Below, in pieces: positions 2,598 through 29,913 of a stretch of DNA of 33,071 nucleotides. Within the stretch, counting starts at the first letter, position 1. The number at the start of each line of letters is the position of its first letter. Location: contig DIKJ01000049.1 in assembly GCA_002424525.1 (NCBI GenBank), forward strand, positions 1 to 33,071, given 5' to 3'. The stretch comes from Bacteroidales bacterium UBA5621. GTDB lineage: Bacteria; Bacteroidota; Bacteroidia; Bacteroidales; VadinHA17. The notes under the pieces were generated by a model. That model did not search any database. It had not been told where the DNA came from and was given only the letters and a program-made list of their open reading frames with translations. The position numbers were made by a program, and so were the translations under genes.

Positions 2598-2834
2598 TTA
2601 TGATTTATCAGGTGACTTAAGTCTTATAAGTTCTGTGATATACTTCCGACTCTTCATCTTTTTTATTACTGATTCCCGCTTGATGGCTGTGGTTTTATCC
2701 TTGCATTCCTCCAGGTAAACCAGTATCCATGGCCTGCCTGATCTGGTAGAGGCAGTAGCACCAAGATTATGCGAATATCCCGTATAATATCTGTCTATTG
2801 ACTGACTGTAGATTATTTAAACCGAGTAAACCAT
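2598..2834 (-). pseudogene. GIY-YIG nuclease gene, broken by a nonsense codon and an internal deletion
   Basis: Reading the minus strand from the ATG at 2834 gives MVYSV, a TAA at 2819-2817, then IIYSQSIDRYYTGYSHN and, further on, GRPWILVYLEE and AIKRESVIKKMKSRKYI, ending at a TAA at 2600-2598. This is the small single-domain GIY-YIG family. The TAA falls where the first motif (Y-x-Y-I-I/L) has a Tyr codon, so one base change explains it. In intact relatives roughly ten residues, including the catalytic Arg of the RLxxH motif, sit between GYS and HN; here they are missing. The metal-binding Glu is kept in the KRE motif (Glu54). The remaining frame is open to the end, which indicates recent decay. 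Both defects together make a functional nuclease unlikely. Intact homologues are about 80-100 residues. Confidence 0.85.
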
Positions 2835-2878
2835 ATTACAATATACAAAAAAACGGAAAGCCTTGCCACGCTGTGTGA

Positions 2879-2912
2879 CCTCAGGGAATTGCCTTACGGC
2901 GATTCCCTGAGG
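2879..2912. repeat. Perfect 15-bp hairpin, copy 2 of the bracketing palindrome
   Basis: The arms 2879-2893 and 2898-2912 pair over 15 positions (one G-T) around the loop TTAC. There is no T-run after it on either strand, so it is not an ordinary terminator. Its outer sequence GGGAATTGCCTT...CGATTCCCTGA is shared with 2144-2207. Confidence 0.75.
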
Positions 2913-2930
2913 GGGTGCTTAACAAAGGAA

Positions 2931-2972
2931 AGCCTTGCCACGCGATCGCGTGGCTCAGGGCTTTTTTGTTTT
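2931..2972 (+). terminator. Terminator-like hairpin, plus strand
   Basis: AGCC at 2931-2934 pairs with GGCT near 2959-2962. The perfect palindrome GCCACGCGATCGCGTGGC (2937-2954) sits inside, and the run TTTTTTGTTTTT (2962-2973) follows. It would stop rightward transcription before the antisense side of tRNA-Met. Confidence 0.6.
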
Positions 2973-3002
2973 TCAGCCCTTTTGAGCAAGCTCAAGGGCA
3001 TC

Positions 3003-3034
3003 AAAACAAAAAACCCTGCCGCTGTGCGGCAAGG
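3003..3034 (-). terminator. Terminator of tRNA-Met
   Basis: On the minus strand CCTTGCCGC (3034-3026) pairs with GCGGCAGGG (3022-3014) around a 3-nt loop, followed by TTTTTTGTTTT. It begins 10 bases after the tRNA 3' end. Confidence 0.75.
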
Positions 3035-3044
3035 CTTTCCGTTG

Positions 3045-3118
3045 TAGCGAGACGGGGAATTGAACCCCGGACCTCATGATTATGAATCATGCGCTCTAAC
3101 CATCTGAGCTATCTCGCC
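3045..3118 (-). tRNA. tRNA-Met (anticodon CAT)
   Basis: On the minus strand the acceptor GGCGAGA pairs with TCTCGCT (first pair G-U), followed by discriminator A. TAGCTCAG gives the D-arm start, and the anticodon stem CATGA/TCATG encloses the loop TTCATAA with CAT at positions 34-36. The T-arm is CGGGGTTCAATTCCCCG. CCA is not encoded. A first pair of G-U, rather than the C-A mismatch of initiators, favours an elongator Met tRNA. A tRNA-Ile with lysidine-modified CAT cannot be excluded by anticodon alone. Confidence 0.95.
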
Positions 3119-3204
3119 CTGTCCACCGAAGCTTTAGCGAAGGTGGGCCCATTGACCGCCGAAGCCCGGATTTAACGGTGCAAAAGCAATTCTTTTTGCG
3201 GGTG

Positions 3205-3235
3205 CAAATATAAACAGATAATGCCAAAAAATCAA
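3205..3235 (-). promoter_or_regulatory. Probable promoter for tRNA-Met
   Basis: On the minus strand TTG (3235-3233), 20 bases, then TATATTTG (3212-3205) fit the Bacteroidota consensus. The start would be about 80 bases before the tRNA. The leader contains two related motifs in the given orientation, CCACCGAAGC (3123-3132) and CCGCCGAAGC (3156-3165), with partial dyads. Confidence 0.55.
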
Positions 3236-3300
3236 TACAGTTTTTTGTTTTGATTATTTTTTCTATATTGCAGAATAGTAATATTTCAGCAATCGCTCCC

Positions 3301-3681
3301 ATGAGAATCAGGTATGAACTTGAATACACTCTGAACTGCTCACCCAAAGTCCTTTTCTCGAGGCTGAGCACTCCTGAAGGTCTCAGTGAATGGTTTGCTG
3401 ACAACGTTACCGTCGATGGCGATGTTTTTACTTTCCACTGGAATAAATCGGAACAGAAAGCCCGTATCTCATCCCTGAGAGAGAACAAAAGCGTAAGATT
3501 CGAATGGACCGACAGACATAACAAGGAATCAAATTACTTCGAATTCAGAATAATCATCGAAGAGCTCACCGGAGACCTCGCACTGCTAATTACCGATTTT
3601 GCCGAACCCGACGAAAAGGAGGACGCGATCTACCTCTGGGACTCCCAGATATCCGACCTGAAAAGGGCGCTGGGGATGTAA
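3301..3681 (+). CDS. START-like domain protein (AHSA1/SRPBCC fold)
   Basis: The 126-residue protein begins MRIRYELEYTLNCSPKVLF and continues with LSTPEGLSEWFADNV, FTFHWNKSEQKA and TDFAEPDE, ending WDSQISDLKRALGM. This is the pattern of the single-domain START-like family common in Bacteroidota: a helix-grip fold that may bind a hydrophobic ligand. Its function is not established. The open frame extends back to a TTG at 3250, but that region is AT-rich leader sequence and family members begin at the conserved hydrophobic strand, so the ATG at 3301 is preferred. A TATATTGC sequence at 3264-3271 resembles a -7 promoter element with one mismatch. The gene is divergent from tRNA-Met and is followed by a separate promoter for the next gene. 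Confidence 0.88.
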   Translation: MRIRYELEYTLNCSPKVLFSRLSTPEGLSEWFADNVTVDGDVFTFHWNKSEQKARISSLRENKSVRFEWTDRHNKESNYFEFRIIIEELTGDLALLITDFAEPDEKEDAIYLWDSQISDLKRALGM

Positions 3682-22957: not shown

Positions 22958-25900
22958 TTACCTGATAACACTTATCACACCTGTTTTGGGTTCCGAACCA
23001 TCATTCAGATATAGTATGTAATGGTATGAATCCGTAGGTACGAGCTTGCCTTCAGACGTCCCGTCCCACGGATTGGCTGAGATATTCTTCGTCCTGAAAA
23101 TTAATTTTCCCCACCTGTTGAACACCAGCACTTCAGCGTTGGGGTAGAGATCAATATTCTTCAGGATCCATTCATCGTTAAATCCGTCGTTGTTGGGTGT
23201 AATTATATTTGATATCTCAACACAGTTGTAGGTCCCGATGAAACCAACCACGACGCTGTGACTCTGTGAACACCCGTTCTGATCCGTTACCACCACACTG
23301 TATGTTCCGGGCAGCATGTTGATCCTGTTTTGCATGCCTGCGCCGTCGGACCAGATAATGGTATAAGGCTCTGTTCCTCCTGTGATTGTCAGGATGATGG
23401 AGCCGTTAGCCTCATCAGGACAGGTGGCATCATTAGCTATTGACTGAATTACCAGAAGATCCGGCTCGTTTATCTGGACTGATCCGGTCGACATGCATCC
23501 GTTGGCATCGGTGATCGTAACCGTATAGTTGCCTGCATCCAGTCCTGTTGCAGTTGCTGAAGTCTGGACAGGTAATGTGTTCCAGGAATAGGCATAAGGT
23601 TCTGCGCCACCCGAAACAACAGCTTCTGCTGTGCCGTTAGCACTGCCATAACACCGGACATCTGTCTTTGTAATTGTGACCACCATGGCATCAGGTGGTT
23701 CTTCTATTGTTACATCAGCAGAAGTCTCACACCCGTTTGCATCGGTTACAGTAACTGTATAGAGGCCGGCTGCAAGGTTTATTGCGGTCGCCCCGGTCTG
23801 GACCGGTGTGGTGTTCCACGCATAGCTCCACGGCTCTGTTCCGCCAGTAACCACCACTGTTGCGGTTCCGGAAGCCTGGCCTGCACATAGTGCGTCTGTA
23901 CCGGTTGCTGTAGCTGCAAGTTCTACCGGCTCTGTTATCACCAGCGGCAAATTATATGTATCGGAAGCCGCATTCCTGATTGTAATGGTGTATGTGCCGG
24001 CGGTGAGTGATGCAAATGTGCCTGAGGACTGATATGGGCCGCCATCAAGACTGTATTCATAGGGAGGCAGTCCGCCAATGCCCTCTGCTATGGCACTGCC
24101 GTCGTTGCCGCCAAAGCATGAGACATTGGTTTGTGATACAATGGTTCCTGAAAATGGAGGCAGTGGCTGAGTAATGGTAACAGGTATTTCTACTGTGCAC
24201 AGGTTGCCGTCCTGAACTGTAATCACATAAGAACCTGCAACAAGTGACCCGAAGACCCCTGAGCCCTGATATGGCTCGGAGCCGATCCTGTACTGATATG
24301 GGAGAATTCCACCCAGACCTGCCACAGTAACACTTCCGTCGTTGCCTCCATAAACCGAAACATTTGTCTGGGAAGTTATGCTGCCAGTAAGTGCCTCAGG
24401 AGGCTGTGTAATCGTACCGGATGCAATGGCTGCGCAGCCGTTGGCATCGGTTATGATAACAGTATAAGAACCTGCTGCAGCATCCGTAAGGTCTTCTCCT
24501 GTCGAACCGTCGCTCCAGAGGAACGTATACGGGGGCGTCCCTCCTGCCAAAGTCAGGTCAATTACTCCGGTCGCATCTCCGTTGCATAGAACATCTGTTA
24601 CAGTTGACGTTACGGATAGCGCTGCTGATGGTTGTGTTACGGTGGCACTGACTGTCACGGAACAGCCGTTCTGGTCAGTGATGAGTACTGTAAAGGTTCC
24701 CGGCAGCAGTCCGGTTATATCCTCAGTGACAGCTCCGTTGCTCCATGCAAAGGTGTAGGGCAGCGTGCCGCCTGTAACCGTAAGATTGATGGAACCGTCA
24801 TTTCCTCCGAAGCAGTTCACGTTGCTTACTGTTGTACTTCCTGCAAGGCCTGTTGATGGCTGGATGACGGTTGCGGAGAGTGTCAAAACACAGCCATTGG
24901 CATCGGTGACAGTAACCGTGTAAGAACCTGCAATGAGATTCGTCAGATCTTCCGTAATCGGTCCGTTGTTCCAGAGGAAGGTGTACGGAAGAGTACCTCC
25001 TGTAACATCCAGATCAACTGCTCCGGTCGCATCTCCGAAACAAAGAATATTCGTGACCGTTGTTGTGCCTGCCAGGGGTGCCGCAGGTTGTGTTATCGTT
25101 CCACCGGATGATGCTGTACAGCCATTGGCATCGGTAATAGTAACGGTGTAGGTTCCCGCTGCAACATTCGTCAGGTCTTCCAGTACTGATCCGTTACTCC
25201 AGAGGAAGGTGTATGGGGCTGTACCCCCTGACACTGTCAGGTTAATTGAACCGGTGGCTTCTCCGGAGCAGAGAACGTCAGTGACAGCTGTCGTTGCTGT
25301 CAGGGCTGCAGCGGGTTGCGTTACAGTCGCGCTTGCAGTCGTTGTACAACCGTTCTGGTCGGTGATGAGTACCGTAAAGGTTCCCGGCAGCAGGCCGGTT
25401 ATATCCTTAGTGACAGCCCCATTGCTCCACGCGAAGGTATAGGGGGGCGTGCCGCCTGTAACTGTTAGATTGATGGCACCGTCATTCCCCCCGAAACAGT
25501 TCACATTGCTCACCGTTGTACTTCCTGCGAGGCTTGCTGAAGGCTGGGTAACAGACGCGGAGAGTGTTACTGCACAACCATTGGCATCGGTGACAGTAAC
25601 TGTGTAGGTACCGGCAATAAGACCTGTCAGATCCTCTGTGACTGCTCCGTTGCTCCAGAGGAAAGTGTACGGTGCAGTACCACCAGTAACCGTCAGGTCA
25701 ACTGATCCGGTGGCTTCCCCGTAACAGGGAACATTTATCACATTAGTTGAACCGGTAAGAGGTGCCGAAGGTTCTGCTATGGTTGCAGATACAACCACCG
25801 TACAGCTGTTGGCGTCAGTTATTGTGACACTGTATAACCCGGCAATCACATCTGCAAGGTCTTCCGTCACCGATCCATTGCTCCAGAGGAAGATATATGG

Positions 25901-28900
25901 GGCTGTTCCACCTGTTACTGTAAGGTCAATTGCCCCTGTGACCTCTCCATAGCAAAGGACGTCTGTCACAACAGCAGTTCCGGCCAGCGGTGCAGATGGT
26001 TGGGTTACAGTTACAATGACCGTTGTTACACATCCGTTCTGATCGGTGATAATAACTGAATAAGTACCGGCAATAAGGCCACTGATATCTTCAGTGACTG
26101 CTCCATTGCTCCATGCGAATGTATAGGGTGATGTACCACCCGTAACTGTAAGGTTTACAGCTCCGTCGCTGCCGCCGAAACAGCTGACATTGGTTATGGT
26201 GACGGTGCCTGAAAGTGGTGCGGCGGGTTGAGTTACGGTTTCTGAGACTGTTATTGTACATCCGTTTGCATCGGTAATGGTCACTGTGTAAACGCCTTCC
26301 GTGACATTTACCAGGTCCTCTGTAGTGGATCCGTTGCTCCAGAGATAAGTATATGGCTGCGTGCCGCCTGAAACCGTAAGATTAAGCGATCCCGTTGCCC
26401 CTCCGTAGCAAAGGACATCTGTTACCGTCACTGTTCCTCCGAGGGGAGCGGCCGGTTGTGTAACTGTTGCTCCTGCGGAAGCTGTGCATCCATTGGCATC
26501 AGTAATCAGGACAGTGTAGGCTCCTGCAGGCAGATTGGTGATGTCTTTTGTGGCTGATCCGTTGCTCCAGAGATAGGTATAAGGTGTTGTCCCTCCGGTT
26601 ACAGTAAGAATGACTGATCCGGTTTCATCGCCGTAGCAGAGGACATTTCCTGCCATTACTGATGCGGCAAGCGGAGCAAATGGCTCTGTGACCTGTGCCT
26701 GCACGTCTCTCACACAAGTATTATTGTCACGTATGGTAACAGTATAGAGTCCGGCTGAAAGACCAGTGAAAATATTTGGCCCCTGATATGGCCCGCCGTT
26801 AAGACTGTATTCATAGGGTGGCGTTCCTCCAAGGGCAGATATCGTAAGAGAGCCGTCGGAACCACCGAAACAGTTCACATCGGTCTGTGATTCCACACTT
26901 CCCATAAGGACGGTCGGCTGAGTTATCGTAAAGGGAACATCGAAGATGCACAAAAGCCCGTCTCGTATGCGCACGAAATGGTTCCCCAGAGCAAGATTCG
27001 TAAATGTGCCGCTTAACTGGAAAGGTCCACCGTCGAGAGAATATTCATACGGAGGCTGGCCGGATCCTGGCGTGGCAGCAACAGTAACCTGACCATCGGA
27101 AATTCCGTTACAGGTAATATCAGTCAGAGAGGTTACCGATCCACTGAGGTTGTTGATCAGAATGTCGTTTATGATTGCTGACGAACACCCTTCGGCACTT
27201 TCGACGGTAACAGTAATGTTCCCTGCCGGACCATTGCCCCATCTGATGGTAACGAAGTTGTCTGAAGTCGAGCCCCCGTCGGTTATGTTGCCTCCTGTCA
27301 CTGCCCAGTTATGAAATGCGTATACATCCGTTAATGAATAAGTGTATTCAGTATTGGAGCAGGCATCGTCCGGAGGGGTAACGTATGATGGTACCGGCAC
27401 AGGATGTATCGTAACCGTTTCTGTAGCATAATATTCACAAACTTCAGATTCCTGGCTGGGCTTTTGTGTTGTTGTTTCTACCACCCCCTGAATTGCACCC
27501 AGGTCCCAAAGTACGCTGATACTGCTTGTATCCTGATCGGCATTCAGGATGGTACCGTTCACAACGTTCCACTGGTATGAGGCTTCTGCGTTCCAGATCG
27601 CTGAGTATGTTCTAATGTCACCCTCGCACGCATCAGAAGTATTCAATGTAACATTGTTAAAAACAGGTCCCGCTTTATTTATGATCATGAATGACGTATC
27701 GGTGCATCCGTTTCCGTCAGTGACAACAAGCCGTATAGGGTAACTCCCGTCAGGAAGGGTGGAAGTACTGTTGAAAAGAGGATTCGGTTCAGTGCTGGTA
27801 TTATTGAACTGCAACTGGGGAGGCATGGTTGGTATCCATACCAGGAAAGGCAGTGACGATTCATCCATTCCCTTCCAGAAATATGAATACACACCATCTC
27901 CTCCCACGATCTGAGACGAATAAAGTGCAAAAGGGACCGCAAGCTGACAGCTGTTAAGTGTTATACCAACGATCTTAAGTGTTGATGTAACTGTTATAGT
28001 TACTTTGCGTGATCTTGAATTACCAAATGTATCGGTGGCTGTGAGCACGACCTCCTGAATGCCGACATCGCCGCAGGTGAAGGTATTTGGCGACACAGAA
28101 AGAGTCAGGGGTCCGCAATTATCGAACGAGCCGTTATCAATATCGGAAGGCAGAACAGTACCGGTTCCGTCTGCACCGAGAACAAGGTTAAACCTTTTCA
28201 GGTTAACAACAGGGGCAATGGTGTCGAGAACGGTTACCTGTGAAATGCAGGATGCTGAATTACCGGCAGCGTCGGTACCGGTTAGTGTTACCGGCACAGG
28301 GGCGCCGATATCAGAGCAGTTCATTTCGGTCCTGCTCAGGTAAAGCATCAGCGATCCGGCACAATTATCCGTGGATCCGTTATCGAGATCAGCGGGTGCG
28401 ACAGATGCGGATCCTGTCTTATTAAGGTAGACCATAATATTCCTGCAGGTGATTTGCGGTGCAATATTATCCTGTACTATTACGGTGGTATTGCAGGTCG
28501 AGGTCAATCCCCCGTCGTCGGTGACGATCAGCTCAACCGTGTTGGCCCCAATGTTGAGGCAGGAAAATGTATTAGGGTTAACAACCCGGCTGACGATGGA
28601 ACCATCCGGATCGAAAGAACCGGCATCCACCTGGGTTGCGTTGACAGTAACGGTGCCTGACGGTCCCAGACTGACCGTAATATTCCTGCATAAGGCAACA
28701 GGGGGCATATTCTGGGGCATGGAGTTATCTCCGCCAGCCCTGTCAGACGCACTATTCAGAAGGTGATGCTGTCCGGTGCCGTTAACAACGGAGTGGCCTG
28801 CAATGGTTTGATTAACTGTAATTGCACAGAACAAAACAGCAACAGCCAGAAAAGCTATGAATTTTATGGTTTTCAATCTTCCGCAAGGCAACGGCACTGG

Positions 28901-28993
28901 TCCGGGAAAGCCCTTTTGTGCACTATCCGGGTTGTTCCGGGTTATGATAATGTCAGCGGGAGCATAAACAAAATGACGGCTCAAGTCTTTCAT
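22958..28993 (-). CDS. Giant SprB-repeat surface adhesin with T9SS type B sorting domain
   Basis: A 2011-residue surface protein. Residues 1-66 hold an N-terminal extension and signal peptide (hydrophobic 43-60, FIAFLAVAVLFCAITV). A TTG at 28876 would give a standard signal peptide start, so the true start is uncertain. Three HYR-like modules follow at about 97-176, 178-257 and 259-336, each with an N-C-x-pattern and paired Cys. A PKD-like, Cys-containing region covers about 337-615. Residues 616-1918 are 17 SprB-type repeats of mostly 76 residues, with the pattern CxGxxTGxxxLTVTGGTxPYTFxWSNG and ITDANGC. Residues 1919-2011 are the type B gliding-type C-terminal domain: ISNIITPNNDGFNDEW, VLVFNRWGKLIF, NPWDGTSEGKLVPTDSYHY. 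It is expected to leave through T9SS and act in adhesion or gliding. The gene order adhesin, PorP/SprF and nuclease is consistent with one operon. Confidence 0.95.
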   Translation of the reverse strand: MKDLSRHFVYAPADIIITRNNPDSAQKGFPGPVPLPCGRLKTIKFIAFLAVAVLFCAITVNQTIAGHSVVNGTGQHHLLNSASDRAGGDNSMPQNMPPVALCRNITVSLGPSGTVTVNATQVDAGSFDPDGSIVSRVVNPNTFSCLNIGANTVELIVTDDGGLTSTCNTTVIVQDNIAPQITCRNIMVYLNKTGSASVAPADLDNGSTDNCAGSLMLYLSRTEMNCSDIGAPVPVTLTGTDAAGNSASCISQVTVLDTIAPVVNLKRFNLVLGADGTGTVLPSDIDNGSFDNCGPLTLSVSPNTFTCGDVGIQEVVLTATDTFGNSRSRKVTITVTSTLKIVGITLNSCQLAVPFALYSSQIVGGDGVYSYFWKGMDESSLPFLVWIPTMPPQLQFNNTSTEPNPLFNSTSTLPDGSYPIRLVVTDGNGCTDTSFMIINKAGPVFNNVTLNTSDACEGDIRTYSAIWNAEASYQWNVVNGTILNADQDTSSISVLWDLGAIQGVVETTTQKPSQESEVCEYYATETVTIHPVPVPSYVTPPDDACSNTEYTYSLTDVYAFHNWAVTGGNITDGGSTSDNFVTIRWGNGPAGNITVTVESAEGCSSAIINDILINNLSGSVTSLTDITCNGISDGQVTVAATPGSGQPPYEYSLDGGPFQLSGTFTNLALGNHFVRIRDGLLCIFDVPFTITQPTVLMGSVESQTDVNCFGGSDGSLTISALGGTPPYEYSLNGGPYQGPNIFTGLSAGLYTVTIRDNNTCVRDVQAQVTEPFAPLAASVMAGNVLCYGDETGSVILTVTGGTTPYTYLWSNGSATKDITNLPAGAYTVLITDANGCTASAGATVTQPAAPLGGTVTVTDVLCYGGATGSLNLTVSGGTQPYTYLWSNGSTTEDLVNVTEGVYTVTITDANGCTITVSETVTQPAAPLSGTVTITNVSCFGGSDGAVNLTVTGGTSPYTFAWSNGAVTEDISGLIAGTYSVIITDQNGCVTTVIVTVTQPSAPLAGTAVVTDVLCYGEVTGAIDLTVTGGTAPYIFLWSNGSVTEDLADVIAGLYSVTITDANSCTVVVSATIAEPSAPLTGSTNVINVPCYGEATGSVDLTVTGGTAPYTFLWSNGAVTEDLTGLIAGTYTVTVTDANGCAVTLSASVTQPSASLAGSTTVSNVNCFGGNDGAINLTVTGGTPPYTFAWSNGAVTKDITGLLPGTFTVLITDQNGCTTTASATVTQPAAALTATTAVTDVLCSGEATGSINLTVSGGTAPYTFLWSNGSVLEDLTNVAAGTYTVTITDANGCTASSGGTITQPAAPLAGTTTVTNILCFGDATGAVDLDVTGGTLPYTFLWNNGPITEDLTNLIAGSYTVTVTDANGCVLTLSATVIQPSTGLAGSTTVSNVNCFGGNDGSINLTVTGGTLPYTFAWSNGAVTEDITGLLPGTFTVLITDQNGCSVTVSATVTQPSAALSVTSTVTDVLCNGDATGVIDLTLAGGTPPYTFLWSDGSTGEDLTDAAAGSYTVIITDANGCAAIASGTITQPPEALTGSITSQTNVSVYGGNDGSVTVAGLGGILPYQYRIGSEPYQGSGVFGSLVAGSYVITVQDGNLCTVEIPVTITQPLPPFSGTIVSQTNVSCFGGNDGSAIAEGIGGLPPYEYSLDGGPYQSSGTFASLTAGTYTITIRNAASDTYNLPLVITEPVELAATATGTDALCAGQASGTATVVVTGGTEPWSYAWNTTPVQTGATAINLAAGLYTVTVTDANGCETSADVTIEEPPDAMVVTITKTDVRCYGSANGTAEAVVSGGAEPYAYSWNTLPVQTSATATGLDAGNYTVTITDANGCMSTGSVQINEPDLLVIQSIANDATCPDEANGSIILTITGGTEPYTIIWSDGAGMQNRINMLPGTYSVVVTDQNGCSQSHSVVVGFIGTYNCVEISNIITPNNDGFNDEWILKNIDLYPNAEVLVFNRWGKLIFRTKNISANPWDGTSEGKLVPTDSYHYILYLNDGSEPKTGVISVIR
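23240..27148 (-). repeat. Array of 17 SprB-type coding repeats
   Basis: In-frame tandem repeats code for residues 616-1918, with mean length near 77 residues (about 230 bp). Repeats 1, 2, 13 and 14 have the longer form with PPYEYSLDGGPYQ. Repeats 3-12 share the TFLWSNG form, and 15-17 are more divergent. Confidence 0.9.
24395..26446 (-). repeat. Higher-order repeat: three 684-bp trimers of SprB units
   Basis: Repeats 4-12 are nine units of exactly 228 bp. Units three apart are more alike than neighbours. Unit starts at 26218, 25534 and 24850 (repeats 5, 8, 11) share CFGGxDG and ITDQNGC, whereas the other units have ITDANGC or ITDANSC. Repeats 8 and 11 differ at 8 of 76 residues. The same class recurs at repeats 2 and 14, three units further out on each side. 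Confidence 0.85.
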
Positions 28994-29301
28994 AAGGTCA
29001 GGTTCGGTTTTCTTTTTACGTGTAACACACAGTATATCAAAGAATTATTACATCATGGATCAATGATTTGTAAAATAACCCATGGCTTTTCCCAGTTAAG
29101 AAACTAAATTATAGCGAATGTAATAAAATTTAAAACACTTGTAACCAGATAATTTTAGTGTCTTTTCAACATATTGACAAGACTTGTGAATAAACCCTGG
29201 TGACTCACTGATTACCGATTACTGATCACCTACTACTTTCTTACAACTGTATTCGGTAACCGGTAATCAGTATTCGGTGAAACAGAATTTCAGTTATAAA
29301 T
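28994..29301. other. Non-coding upstream region of the adhesin and tRNA-Val
   Basis: No gene is seen. The stretch is AT-rich. No TAnnTTTG promoter was found close to the adhesin ATG. A short dyad GTGTAACAC lies near 29021-29029, and the inverted heptamer repeat at 29207-29271 is listed separately. Confidence 0.5.
29207..29271. repeat. Inverted repeat built of GATTAC-type heptamers
   Basis: ACTGATTACCGATTAC (29207-29222) matches the reverse complement of GTAACCGGTAATCAGT (29256-29271) at 15 of 16 positions. The left arm itself consists of related heptamers (TGATTAC, CGATTAC, TGATCAC). It is just upstream of the tRNA-Val promoter. Confidence 0.65.
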
Positions 29302-29332
29302 TTTGAAGAGATGAAAATGTGCTCTATATTTG
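29302..29332 (+). promoter_or_regulatory. Canonical promoter for tRNA-Val
   Basis: TTTG (29302-29305), 19 bases, TATATTTG (29325-29332). Start expected around 29338, a few bases before the tRNA. This is the clearest promoter of the window. Confidence 0.75.
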
Positions 29333-29345
29333 CAGGCGTTTCCCC

Positions 29346-29420
29346 GGGCGATTAGCTCAGCTGGTTCAGAGCATCTGCCTTACAAGCAGAGGGTCGGCGG
29401 TTCGAACCCGTCATCGCCCA
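29346..29420 (+). tRNA. tRNA-Val (anticodon TAC)
   Basis: The acceptor GGGCGAT pairs with ATCGCCC, with discriminator A and no encoded CCA. The D-arm starts TAGCTCAG. The anticodon stem TCTGC/GCAGA holds the loop CTTACAA with TAC at 34-36. The T-arm is GGCGGTTCGAACCCGTC. All stems pair well. Confidence 0.96.
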
Positions 29421-29426
29421 CAACCC

Positions 29427-29467
29427 ATAAACCGGATCCGCGAAAGCGGACCCGGTTTATTTTTTTT
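29427..29467 (+). terminator. Terminator of tRNA-Val
   Basis: ATAAACCGGATCCGC (29427-29441) and GCGGACCCGGTTTAT (29446-29460) pair over 15 positions with one mismatch, around a GAAA tetraloop, followed by seven T. Confidence 0.85.
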
Positions 29468-29600
29468 ATGGACGTTCAATGCTTGCATTGATAAGGACAT
29501 AAAAAATATAAACCGGGAAGCGACACCGCAGGTGGAGCGACGGTTTATGGGTTGTAAGGGCCCCAAAAAACGGCTCAACGAAGTTAACCCGTCATCGCCC

Positions 29601-29648
29601 ACACCATAAAAGCCGGTCCTGCAAAAGCAGGGCTGGCTTTTATAGTGT
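29601..29648. terminator. Second hairpin, terminator-like without T-run
   Basis: Arms 29601-29622 and 29627-29648 pair over 22 positions with one mismatch and two G-T pairs, around loop AAAA. No T-run follows, so termination is uncertain. It is the hairpin of repeat unit 2. Confidence 0.5.
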
Positions 29649-29709
29649 AAGGGCCCCCGGAGTGTTAATTCCGGAGGCTGGAAATCGGCGCATCGTTAGA
29701 AGTGTACTT

Positions 29710-29913
29710 TTAGCTACCTTTATCTTCACCCTTGTTTTCTTTGTCTTTTTCCAGCCTTCTCGTAATTGCATCGTTATCATCCTTTGCTTGTTGATCCCTG
29801 ACAAGTGAATACTTTTCTCTGCGTTTATCAGCAGCTTTTAAATCCTCTTCTCTTCTTACATCTTCCTCTTTGTTGTCAGGAACTTGATCTGGTATTGTTA
29901 TCTCATCTTTCAT
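29710..29913 (-). CDS. Small, highly charged hypothetical protein
   Basis: A 67-residue protein that I do not recognise: MKDEITIPDQVPDNKEEDVRREED followed by alternating Lys, Glu, Asp and Arg to the end (KDKENKGEDKGS). More than half of the residues are charged and there are no Cys or hydrophobic segments, so it is probably disordered or a single helix. Support for a real gene is a TTG-N20-TATATTTG promoter whose -7 box ends four bases before the ATG. That distance would imply a leaderless mRNA. It is alone between the tRNA-Val repeats and the lipoprotein gene. Confidence 0.55.
   Translation of the reverse strand: MKDEITIPDQVPDNKEEDVRREEDLKAADKRREKYSLVRDQQAKDDNDAITRRLEKDKENKGEDKGS

Follow-up and report, generated by a model that had tools for sequence, protein, structure and literature searches.

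Why does the 3' end of a tRNA-Val gene stand twice, in tandem, on a contig of Bacteroidales bacterium UBA5621, each copy followed by DNA that folds back on itself? The question was raised by a preliminary description of the window, by which we mean the whole stretch of 33,071 nucleotides that was analysed (contig DIKJ01000049.1, positions 1 to 33,071). The answer to which we give somewhat better than even credence is that the feature is a tRNA-linked repeat of a Bacteroidales type, i.e. a non-coding unit inserted at the T-loop of a tRNA gene.

Two tandem units behind the tRNA-Val gene

The repeat search confirms the duplication of the tRNA-Val 3' end at a start-to-start spacing of 181 bp: the 18-mer AACCCGTCATCGCCCACA is identical in both copies (18/18; Table 1), and the chance of an exact 18-mer recurring within 200 bp, about 200 x 4^-18 by our own arithmetic, puts this far beyond chance. 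Both tails end with TGTAAGGGCCCC, the first copy of which lies, exact, at 29553-29564. The sequence behind the T-loop ends with a terminator-like tail, takes the fold of a three-armed palindrome and adjoins, on the right, the second tRNA 3' part; the window holds two such units in tandem, the second one shortened. The 181-bp unit is too small for an integrase, and its only open frame is a mechanical one of 96 aa, whose start lies ahead of the tRNA gene and which continues across it. Among Rfam families, only tRNA reaches its cut-off in the window.

The segment 29416-29565 folds as a single branched structure of -80.7 kcal/mol (z -10.9), and 29597-29660 as a single hairpin of -41.0 kcal/mol (z -6.65), with 0/200 shuffles as stable in either case. 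The preliminary description had given each copy its own hairpin tail. This holds for the second tail (29597-29655), which is one simple hairpin, but the first tail is a 146-nt three-armed palindrome (29416-29561) and not a simple hairpin. Its outer stem, P1, reaches into the tRNA 3' end: the left strand opens with the final acceptor nucleotides (GCCCACAACCCATAAACCG), the right partner is CGGTTTATGGGTTGT-AA-GGGC, and the stem closes, with AA bulged out, on TGTAAGGGC. The same closing stem and AA bulge recur in the second tail, which we read as a unit having lost arms 2 and 3. As judged from its hairpin and T tract, the element at 29427..29467 is the probable intrinsic terminator of the tRNA.

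Table 1. Features of the tRNA-Val locus in window coordinates.
Feature	Position	Strand	Basis
tRNA-Val(TAC), host RNA gene	29346..29421	+	ARAGORN, Rfam RF00005
T-loop of tRNA-Val	29401-29407	+	sequence reading
18-bp repeat, copy 1, from tRNA T-loop to CA	29405..29422	+	repeat search
P1 left half: acceptor nucleotides GCCC, then ACAACCCATAAACCG	29416..29434	+	fold; inverted repeat I4
Probable tRNA intrinsic terminator: hairpin 29427-29460 plus T tract	29427..29467	+	inverted repeat I5, folds
Arm 1, inner part of the terminator hairpin	29437-29450	+	fold
Arm 2: T tract pairs with A tract, conserved centre at tip	29451..29517	+	fold
Conserved centre C-GT-TCAATG-CTTG-CATTGA-TAA-G	29473..29495	+	pattern searches, covariation
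Arm 3: hairpin with C-GCA-G triloop	29520..29538	+	fold; comparison with relatives
P1 right half, AA bulge, GGGC pairing with tRNA acceptor 3' strand	29541..29561	+	fold; I4
Unit 1 right end: T-arm-like hairpin, ACGG opposite CCGT of copy 2	29570..29592	+	by eye; similar in relatives
18-bp repeat, copy 2, tRNA 3' end; closes unit 1	29586..29603	+	repeat search
Unit 2, shortened: outer stem and arm 1, without arms 2 and 3	29597..29655	+	fold; inverted repeat I2
Right flank TGTAAGGGCCCC, copy 2	29646..29657	+	direct repeat D2
Hairpin CCGG-AGTGTTAATT-CCGG, possible unit 2 right end	29657..29674	+	sequence

A collapsed tandem tRNA array, as had been proposed, or another assembly artefact would leave a repeated tRNA end too, and several draft contigs do end or carry N at these repeats. 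We give this explanation next to no probability: only the part from the T-loop to CA recurs, in several genomes and in complete E. coli chromosomes. The same plan in independent genomes means that the feature is not peculiar to this contig.

On the minus strand of the window (22958-28993) lies a gene whose 2011-aa product carries SprB repeats as well as a type IX secretion signal of the CHU_C kind. It is divergent from tRNA-Val, and its position is kept in several relatives.

A conserved palindrome and its RNA gene hosts

A blastn-type search of 117 genomes from the family to which the window belongs matched tRNA-Val or a similar tRNA in 95, and the tail in only some of them; in 20 fetched stretches and further loci, the same architecture appeared behind tRNA-Val, tRNA-Ser and, in another genus, tRNA-Pro. 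From 11 aligned arm-2 sequences, we built a covariance model of the palindrome centre (R1); L056, whose right half has diverged, was for that reason not used for training. R1 matches arm 2 of the window, which is itself among the training sequences, at 29455-29513 with 80.6 bits. Across the family, it matched 88/117 genomes at E 0.01 or better, a count that includes weak matches inspected in part, and 51/65 of the better family genomes. In the wider samples, in which the searches score few candidates per genome and counts are therefore lower bounds, R1 was found in at least 5/149 genomes of the order and, at E 0.001, in at least 6/395 of the phylum, the window's genome being counted in each. 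The window's own genome has three matches, at tRNA-Val, Asp (L124) and Ser (L129).

The 47 matches that were inspected come from the fetched loci, where the best match of each genome took precedence, and include 11 of the R1 training set. In 36/47, ARAGORN places the end of a tRNA or tmRNA gene 21-43 nt upstream on the same strand, and this is also true of 31/36 once the training matches are removed. The hosts of the former 36 are Ser (9), Pro (6), Val (4), Met (4), Arg (3), Asp (3), His (3), tmRNA (2), Glu (1) and Phe (1), i.e. nine tRNA families plus tmRNA. The preliminary description would have been refuted by a second copy confined to this contig, and is not, as the unit is present behind other tRNAs and in other genomes. 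Another 8 of the remaining 11 matches begin in sequence recognisable as a tRNA 3' end, which a contig end or gap truncates, which ARAGORN did not call, or which is displaced (L089, L091, L092 twice, L102, L105, L109 and L163), while L090 is an odd join within tRNA-Ser sequence and L118 starts at a contig edge.

At tRNA-Val loci, R1 matched in 8/33 distinct genomes (40 loci tested), three of the eight with less than 45 bits. L057, L058, L060 and others are unit-less and carry the window's divergent upstream gene, and are therefore the same locus; some family genomes have another tail at tRNA-Val in place of the unit. By eye, units behind the same tRNA of related genomes look alike, so that much of the distribution may be vertical.

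Two observations stand beside this distribution. At 4692-4750 of L087, a record named Lachnospiraceae RGIG6836, the same centre hairpin sits inside a long hairpin with no adjoining tRNA, and may be a free form, a contaminant, a chance match or something else. In addition, the short contigs of L053 (G068 contig C80) and of L123/L127 (G223 contig C41) carry a unit in opposite orientation at each end, as if tRNA-Ser and its unit were present in more than one copy.

The preliminary description had held that the fold, rather than the sequence, is kept, and covariation bears this out. In the training alignment, 18/21 pairs show changes on both sides, with a covariation score of 0.661 against a shuffled mean of 0.187; among 41 distinct matches, in an alignment that had been fitted to R1, all 21/21 pairs changed on both sides (score 0.725, shuffled 0.181). 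P1 and three arms are present in the minimum-energy fold of 41/47 loci by a criterion that is lenient, because the best of six right end points was taken per locus, and that also passes L087, a locus without tRNA. Similarly, the tRNA-Val copies of the window, L051 and L052, with a related right flank TTGTAAGGGC, and of L050, with TTGTCAGGGTC, have kept the fold while their sequences diverged.

The feet of the centre are nearly fixed, both on the left (C 39, G 41, T 37 of 41) and on the right (T 35, A 41, A 41, G 39 of 41). Hairpins with fixed unpaired feet would also suit a repeat of the REP/BIME type, for which a RAYT (Y1) transposase provides the movement, and Y1_Tnp genes occur in 41/59 family genomes searched. 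We nevertheless regard such a repeat as highly improbable. On 30 fetched Y1_Tnp loci, out of more found, R1 had no match at E up to 0.1, the units are placed behind tRNA genes, and a 6-bp centre stem with CGT/TAAG feet is unlike GTAG REPs. The CGTC-type REPs described in PMC3733652, which combine a CGTC foot, an 8-9 bp stem and a CCA-like tail, share with the Bacteroidales units a small palindrome, unpaired feet and CGT at one foot; the units have a CGTY foot, but a 6-bp stem and a TAAG tail.

How the palindrome is read can be approached through its base pairs. The inner centre helix has no G-U in 243 paired cells despite strong covariation, which suggests that folded DNA rather than RNA is read, and in arm 2 the mismatches are G-T 23 versus C-A 6, of 860, a bias suggesting that it is the tRNA strand that folds. 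Concerted change of both arms by template switching would likewise keep pairs perfect. The G-U rate is 3.7 percent in arm 1 and 3.2-5.4 percent in other parts. As a general proof of folding at the DNA level, low G-U is a weak argument, because arm 1, an expected RNA terminator, is equally poor in it; only the inner helix stands out. An RNA role may exist in addition to folding at the DNA level.

The unpaired bases led us to consider an attC-type integron site as well. This candidate was dropped, since the feet and the right end of the unit seem unlike the usual attC boxes.

Right ends, arrays and possible signs of movement

Where both ends are clear, the unit measures 170-191 bp. A clear second tRNA end, with 0/200 shuffles as good, was found in 6/33 loci, namely the window (Val), L098 (Arg), L099 (tmRNA), L106 (Met), L112 (Met) and L114 (Pro); L093, L095, L100 and L107 have one at p 0.01-0.04, and in 23/33 loci it is weaker or absent. 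A clear second end is also present in G047, with N inside the scaffold there. Copies of 18 nt ending near position 58 had suggested tRNA-primed reverse transcription, a candidate weakened because the L099 and L106 copies extend into the trailer.

When pooled, the right ends contain the first part of the T-stem 3' strand of their own tRNA. Specifically, in a permutation test on 33 loci, which include the six clear ones and from which L092 and L105 were dropped because no T-arm was found, own-tRNA nucleotides 60-65 (a T-stem 6-mer) were present in the right region of 12/33 (mean of 5000 permutations 1.8, maximum 8), and AA plus own-tRNA nucleotides 60-63 in 20/33 (permutation maximum 13). In many loci, an inverted T-stem copy appears by eye to precede this sequence, resulting in a T-arm-like right end; the inverted copy was significant as a 4-mer (20/33; 16/5000 permutations as high) and not significant as a 5-mer (7/33; 573/5000 as high). 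A GA-NN-GNA-NN-GA hairpin occurs in 13/47 right regions versus 0/47 control stretches, and at most 1 in shuffles, while a plain 4-bp GNA triloop is not enriched (4/47 right regions, 4/47 controls).

The downstream repeat scan was positive in 20/38 testable loci. Unit sequence recurs further downstream in 15/38, in L100 and L117 by only 18-19 nt, and the tRNA end alone is repeated in 4/38 (L098, L099, L106 and L114); the match of L122 is a neighbouring tRNA-Ser gene, and in L110 the upstream control of the unit-copy scan also matched, by 15 nt. In regular arrays, the repeated part is often the right half only, from the centre on; L125 has 3.2 copies of 108 bp, and L160 3.0 copies of about 103 bp. 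L164 holds two units, then CTCTCTCCGCAAC / CAATCCCCAACTCTCTCCGCAAC, a stretch that reads as the old tRNA-Ser end and is followed, by eye, by a separate terminator-like hairpin. In L163, 1.2 kb lie between tRNA-Pro and a second tRNA-Pro end on which the unit sits; apparently the T-loop served as a joint on more than one occasion.

All together, an element integrated at the tRNA end, as suggested in the preliminary description, fits these data best. The T-loop is a point used by tRNA-targeting integrases, whose usual att layout has direct repeats that span the tRNA from its T-loop to its 3' end, with an insert that restores the gene. The window unit is flanked by just such direct repeats of the tRNA 3' part, as expected of an integrative element at a tRNA gene and as seen in tyrosine integrase islands. 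Could the locus then be what remains of a conventional genomic island that has lost everything between its two ends? Two relatives with a partial tRNA-Val copy further downstream, at 1.77 kb in L047 and at 7.4 kb in L048, as well as the 1.2 kb inserted at the same point in L163, would agree with this. A large-island scar is nonetheless improbable, because many different tRNAs (nine families, and tmRNA) carry a unit of similar size with the same fold; the tandem arrays also speak against it. The Bacteroidales unit, moreover, differs from integrase islands in having no gene and in its T-arm-like right end with arms that by eye lie about 15-40 nt apart, whereas an integrase site is a short core. 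No gene is common to the loci: when stop-to-stop frames of at least 80 codons around the 47 loci were compared with each other, rather than searched for integrases as such, no ORF family recurred in more than 3 of the 47.

Other inserts at tRNA-Val were observed in passing. The partial copies in L047 (G087) and L048 (G058) resemble ordinary islands. In L049 (G063; 2793-3302), and also in L036 (G048), a small frame, GIY-YIG-like by eye (YYIGYT), continues behind tRNA-Val; in L049 the tRNA 3' part occurs again 318 bp on, perhaps marking another, gene-bearing insert.

A clean empty site that keeps both flanks was not found for the window; in G061, that place is taken up by a repeat array, and the contig ends there. 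Its downstream flank is about 89-92 percent identical from 29656 on, the shared part starting at about 29657-29674 in the blastn comparison with L066. By eye, the first 680 bases of the reverse strand of L066 (G061) are tandem repeats of about 190 bp, at the contig end, and they adjoin the flank orthologous to the downstream side of the window. As for carriage by phages or plasmids, the tRNA part (with up to 8 further bases) alone matched, among the best 10 of 79 and the best 5 of 200 records, and no record among the matches listed covered 80 percent of the query; the E. coli 178-bp unit had no match in phages.

If the unit is a tRNA-linked repeat, it would have arrived through insertion at the T-loop, and the right copy would be the displaced old tRNA 3' end. 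A tiny, gene-less unit would in this way replace the 3' end and the terminator of a tRNA gene. Movement would probably take place in trans, by a recombinase reading folded DNA; arrays would grow via added or duplicated units, and distal units would lose their left halves.

The tRNA-linked repeats of Escherichia coli

The preliminary description could put no name to an element built in this way. The arrangement is, however, that of the tRNA-linked repeats (TLRs) of E. coli, as checked on MG1655 DNA. According to PMC8144298, TLRs were first described by Egan and Landy (1978, as cited there), comprise the 178-bp tyrT repeats and number 22 in ten loci of E. coli K-12; by rule, their 3'-terminal 18-19 bp are the 3' end of the upstream tRNA or rRNA gene. 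The same paper reports that the three 5S-linked TLRs (RrA, RrB and RrF) are transcribed, processed and bind CsrA and Hfq, and that, these three aside, no TLR function was known as of 2021. The Rfam family RtT (RF00391) is one of the E. coli TLRs.

At tyrV of MG1655, the 19-nt tRNA-Tyr end occurs four times (its own end and three repeats) in exact 178-bp steps and with 19/19 identity. Nineteen E. coli RNA genes were scanned for a 3'-end copy within 320 bp, in a scan that left out L172 (leuQPV) and in which stretch L167 missed its target. A copy was found at lysV, where the repeat includes the whole terminator-like hairpin, at rrfB, with three mismatches in the first bases of the 16-mer, and at tyrT and tyrV. 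The copies of alaW, valU and valX are the next identical tRNA gene, and within the 320 bp there was none at argX, hisR, leuT, proM, alaX, valY, glnX, metU, leuW, leuZ, cysT or glyW.

The window unit agrees with these repeats in several respects: it lies directly downstream of a tRNA gene on the same strand, its 3' end is identical to the tRNA 3' end (18/18), and its two units fall within the one to five per locus of TLRs. Position directly behind an RNA gene, in one to few tandem units, is common to both groups; moreover, E. coli rrnB and lysV have a second terminator-like tail after the copy, like the Bacteroidales plan, and the lysV and tyrT units share the GA-NN-GNA-NN-GA hairpin. The lysV and tyrT units share the identical 11-mer GAGCGAAGCGA with L108 and L121, although so short a hairpin may be common elsewhere. 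What sets the Bacteroidales units apart from the TLRs is their three-armed palindrome, with its conserved centre, and tmRNA among their hosts.

Neither the window nor its own genome contains an RtT match above the cut-off, and 29300-29800 lacks one even at E up to 5, while the E. coli positive control matched; R1, in turn, had no match on the E. coli loci. No kinship in sequence was thus found, and the link between the two groups consists of the shared plan and the GAGCGAAGCGA hairpin. The literature searches, which covered listings and excerpts of two papers, gave no account of TLRs outside enterobacteria. In conclusion, the feature is real and conserved, and reads as a Bacteroidales form of a known but unexplained kind of repeat.

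E. coli also indicates how such loci vary. The lysV stretch was matched in 5375/5426 genomes, though at 80 percent or more in one place in 3208 only. At the three places compared (L169, L173 and L174), the distance from the tRNA-Lys end to the xapR feature is 109 bp without a unit, 265 bp in MG1655 and 421 bp with two annotated RtT units, so that the steps are exactly one 156-bp period and a locus holds 0, 1 or 2 units. This variation is gain or loss of whole units, which ordinary recombination between direct repeats could equally explain. The annotations of three lysV matches (H34, H37 and H38) list tRNA-Lys twice.

The processed 5S-linked TLRs give weight to a different view of the unit, in which the 18-bp copy serves as a recognition end for an RNase, as proposed for E. 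coli RrB, and mobility is ancient or absent. A fold kept while the sequence diverges, among the tRNA-Val copies as well, and a mismatch bias in arm 2 that points to the tRNA strand as the folding one both speak for it as well. The patchy occurrence at tRNA-Val, an inner helix devoid of G-U, which is unusual for an RNA helix, and the displaced tRNA ends of L164 and L163 count against it, and we judge it rather unlikely.

The E. coli TLRs and the Bacteroidales units might even form one cross-phylum class of smallest, gene-less integrative elements, a possibility that we put forward tentatively and consider doubtful on balance. If true, the targets of such a class would be the T-loop in tRNA and tmRNA genes and, in 5S genes, the 3' end, and each unit would replace the 3' end and terminator of its host gene; right ends would mimic the T-arm of the target, and a recombinase acting in trans would read folded single-stranded DNA. 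Classical pairs of terminators, rrnB T1-T2 for instance, would in that case consist of a new tail and the displaced old one. With the same plan present in Bacteroidales, and one covarying fold common to the units there, what was a curiosity of E. coli becomes a matter for comparative study, in which many copies allow tests of gain, loss, target choice and required structure. It also carries a warning, namely that such units may replace the 3' ends and terminators of tRNA genes wholesale.
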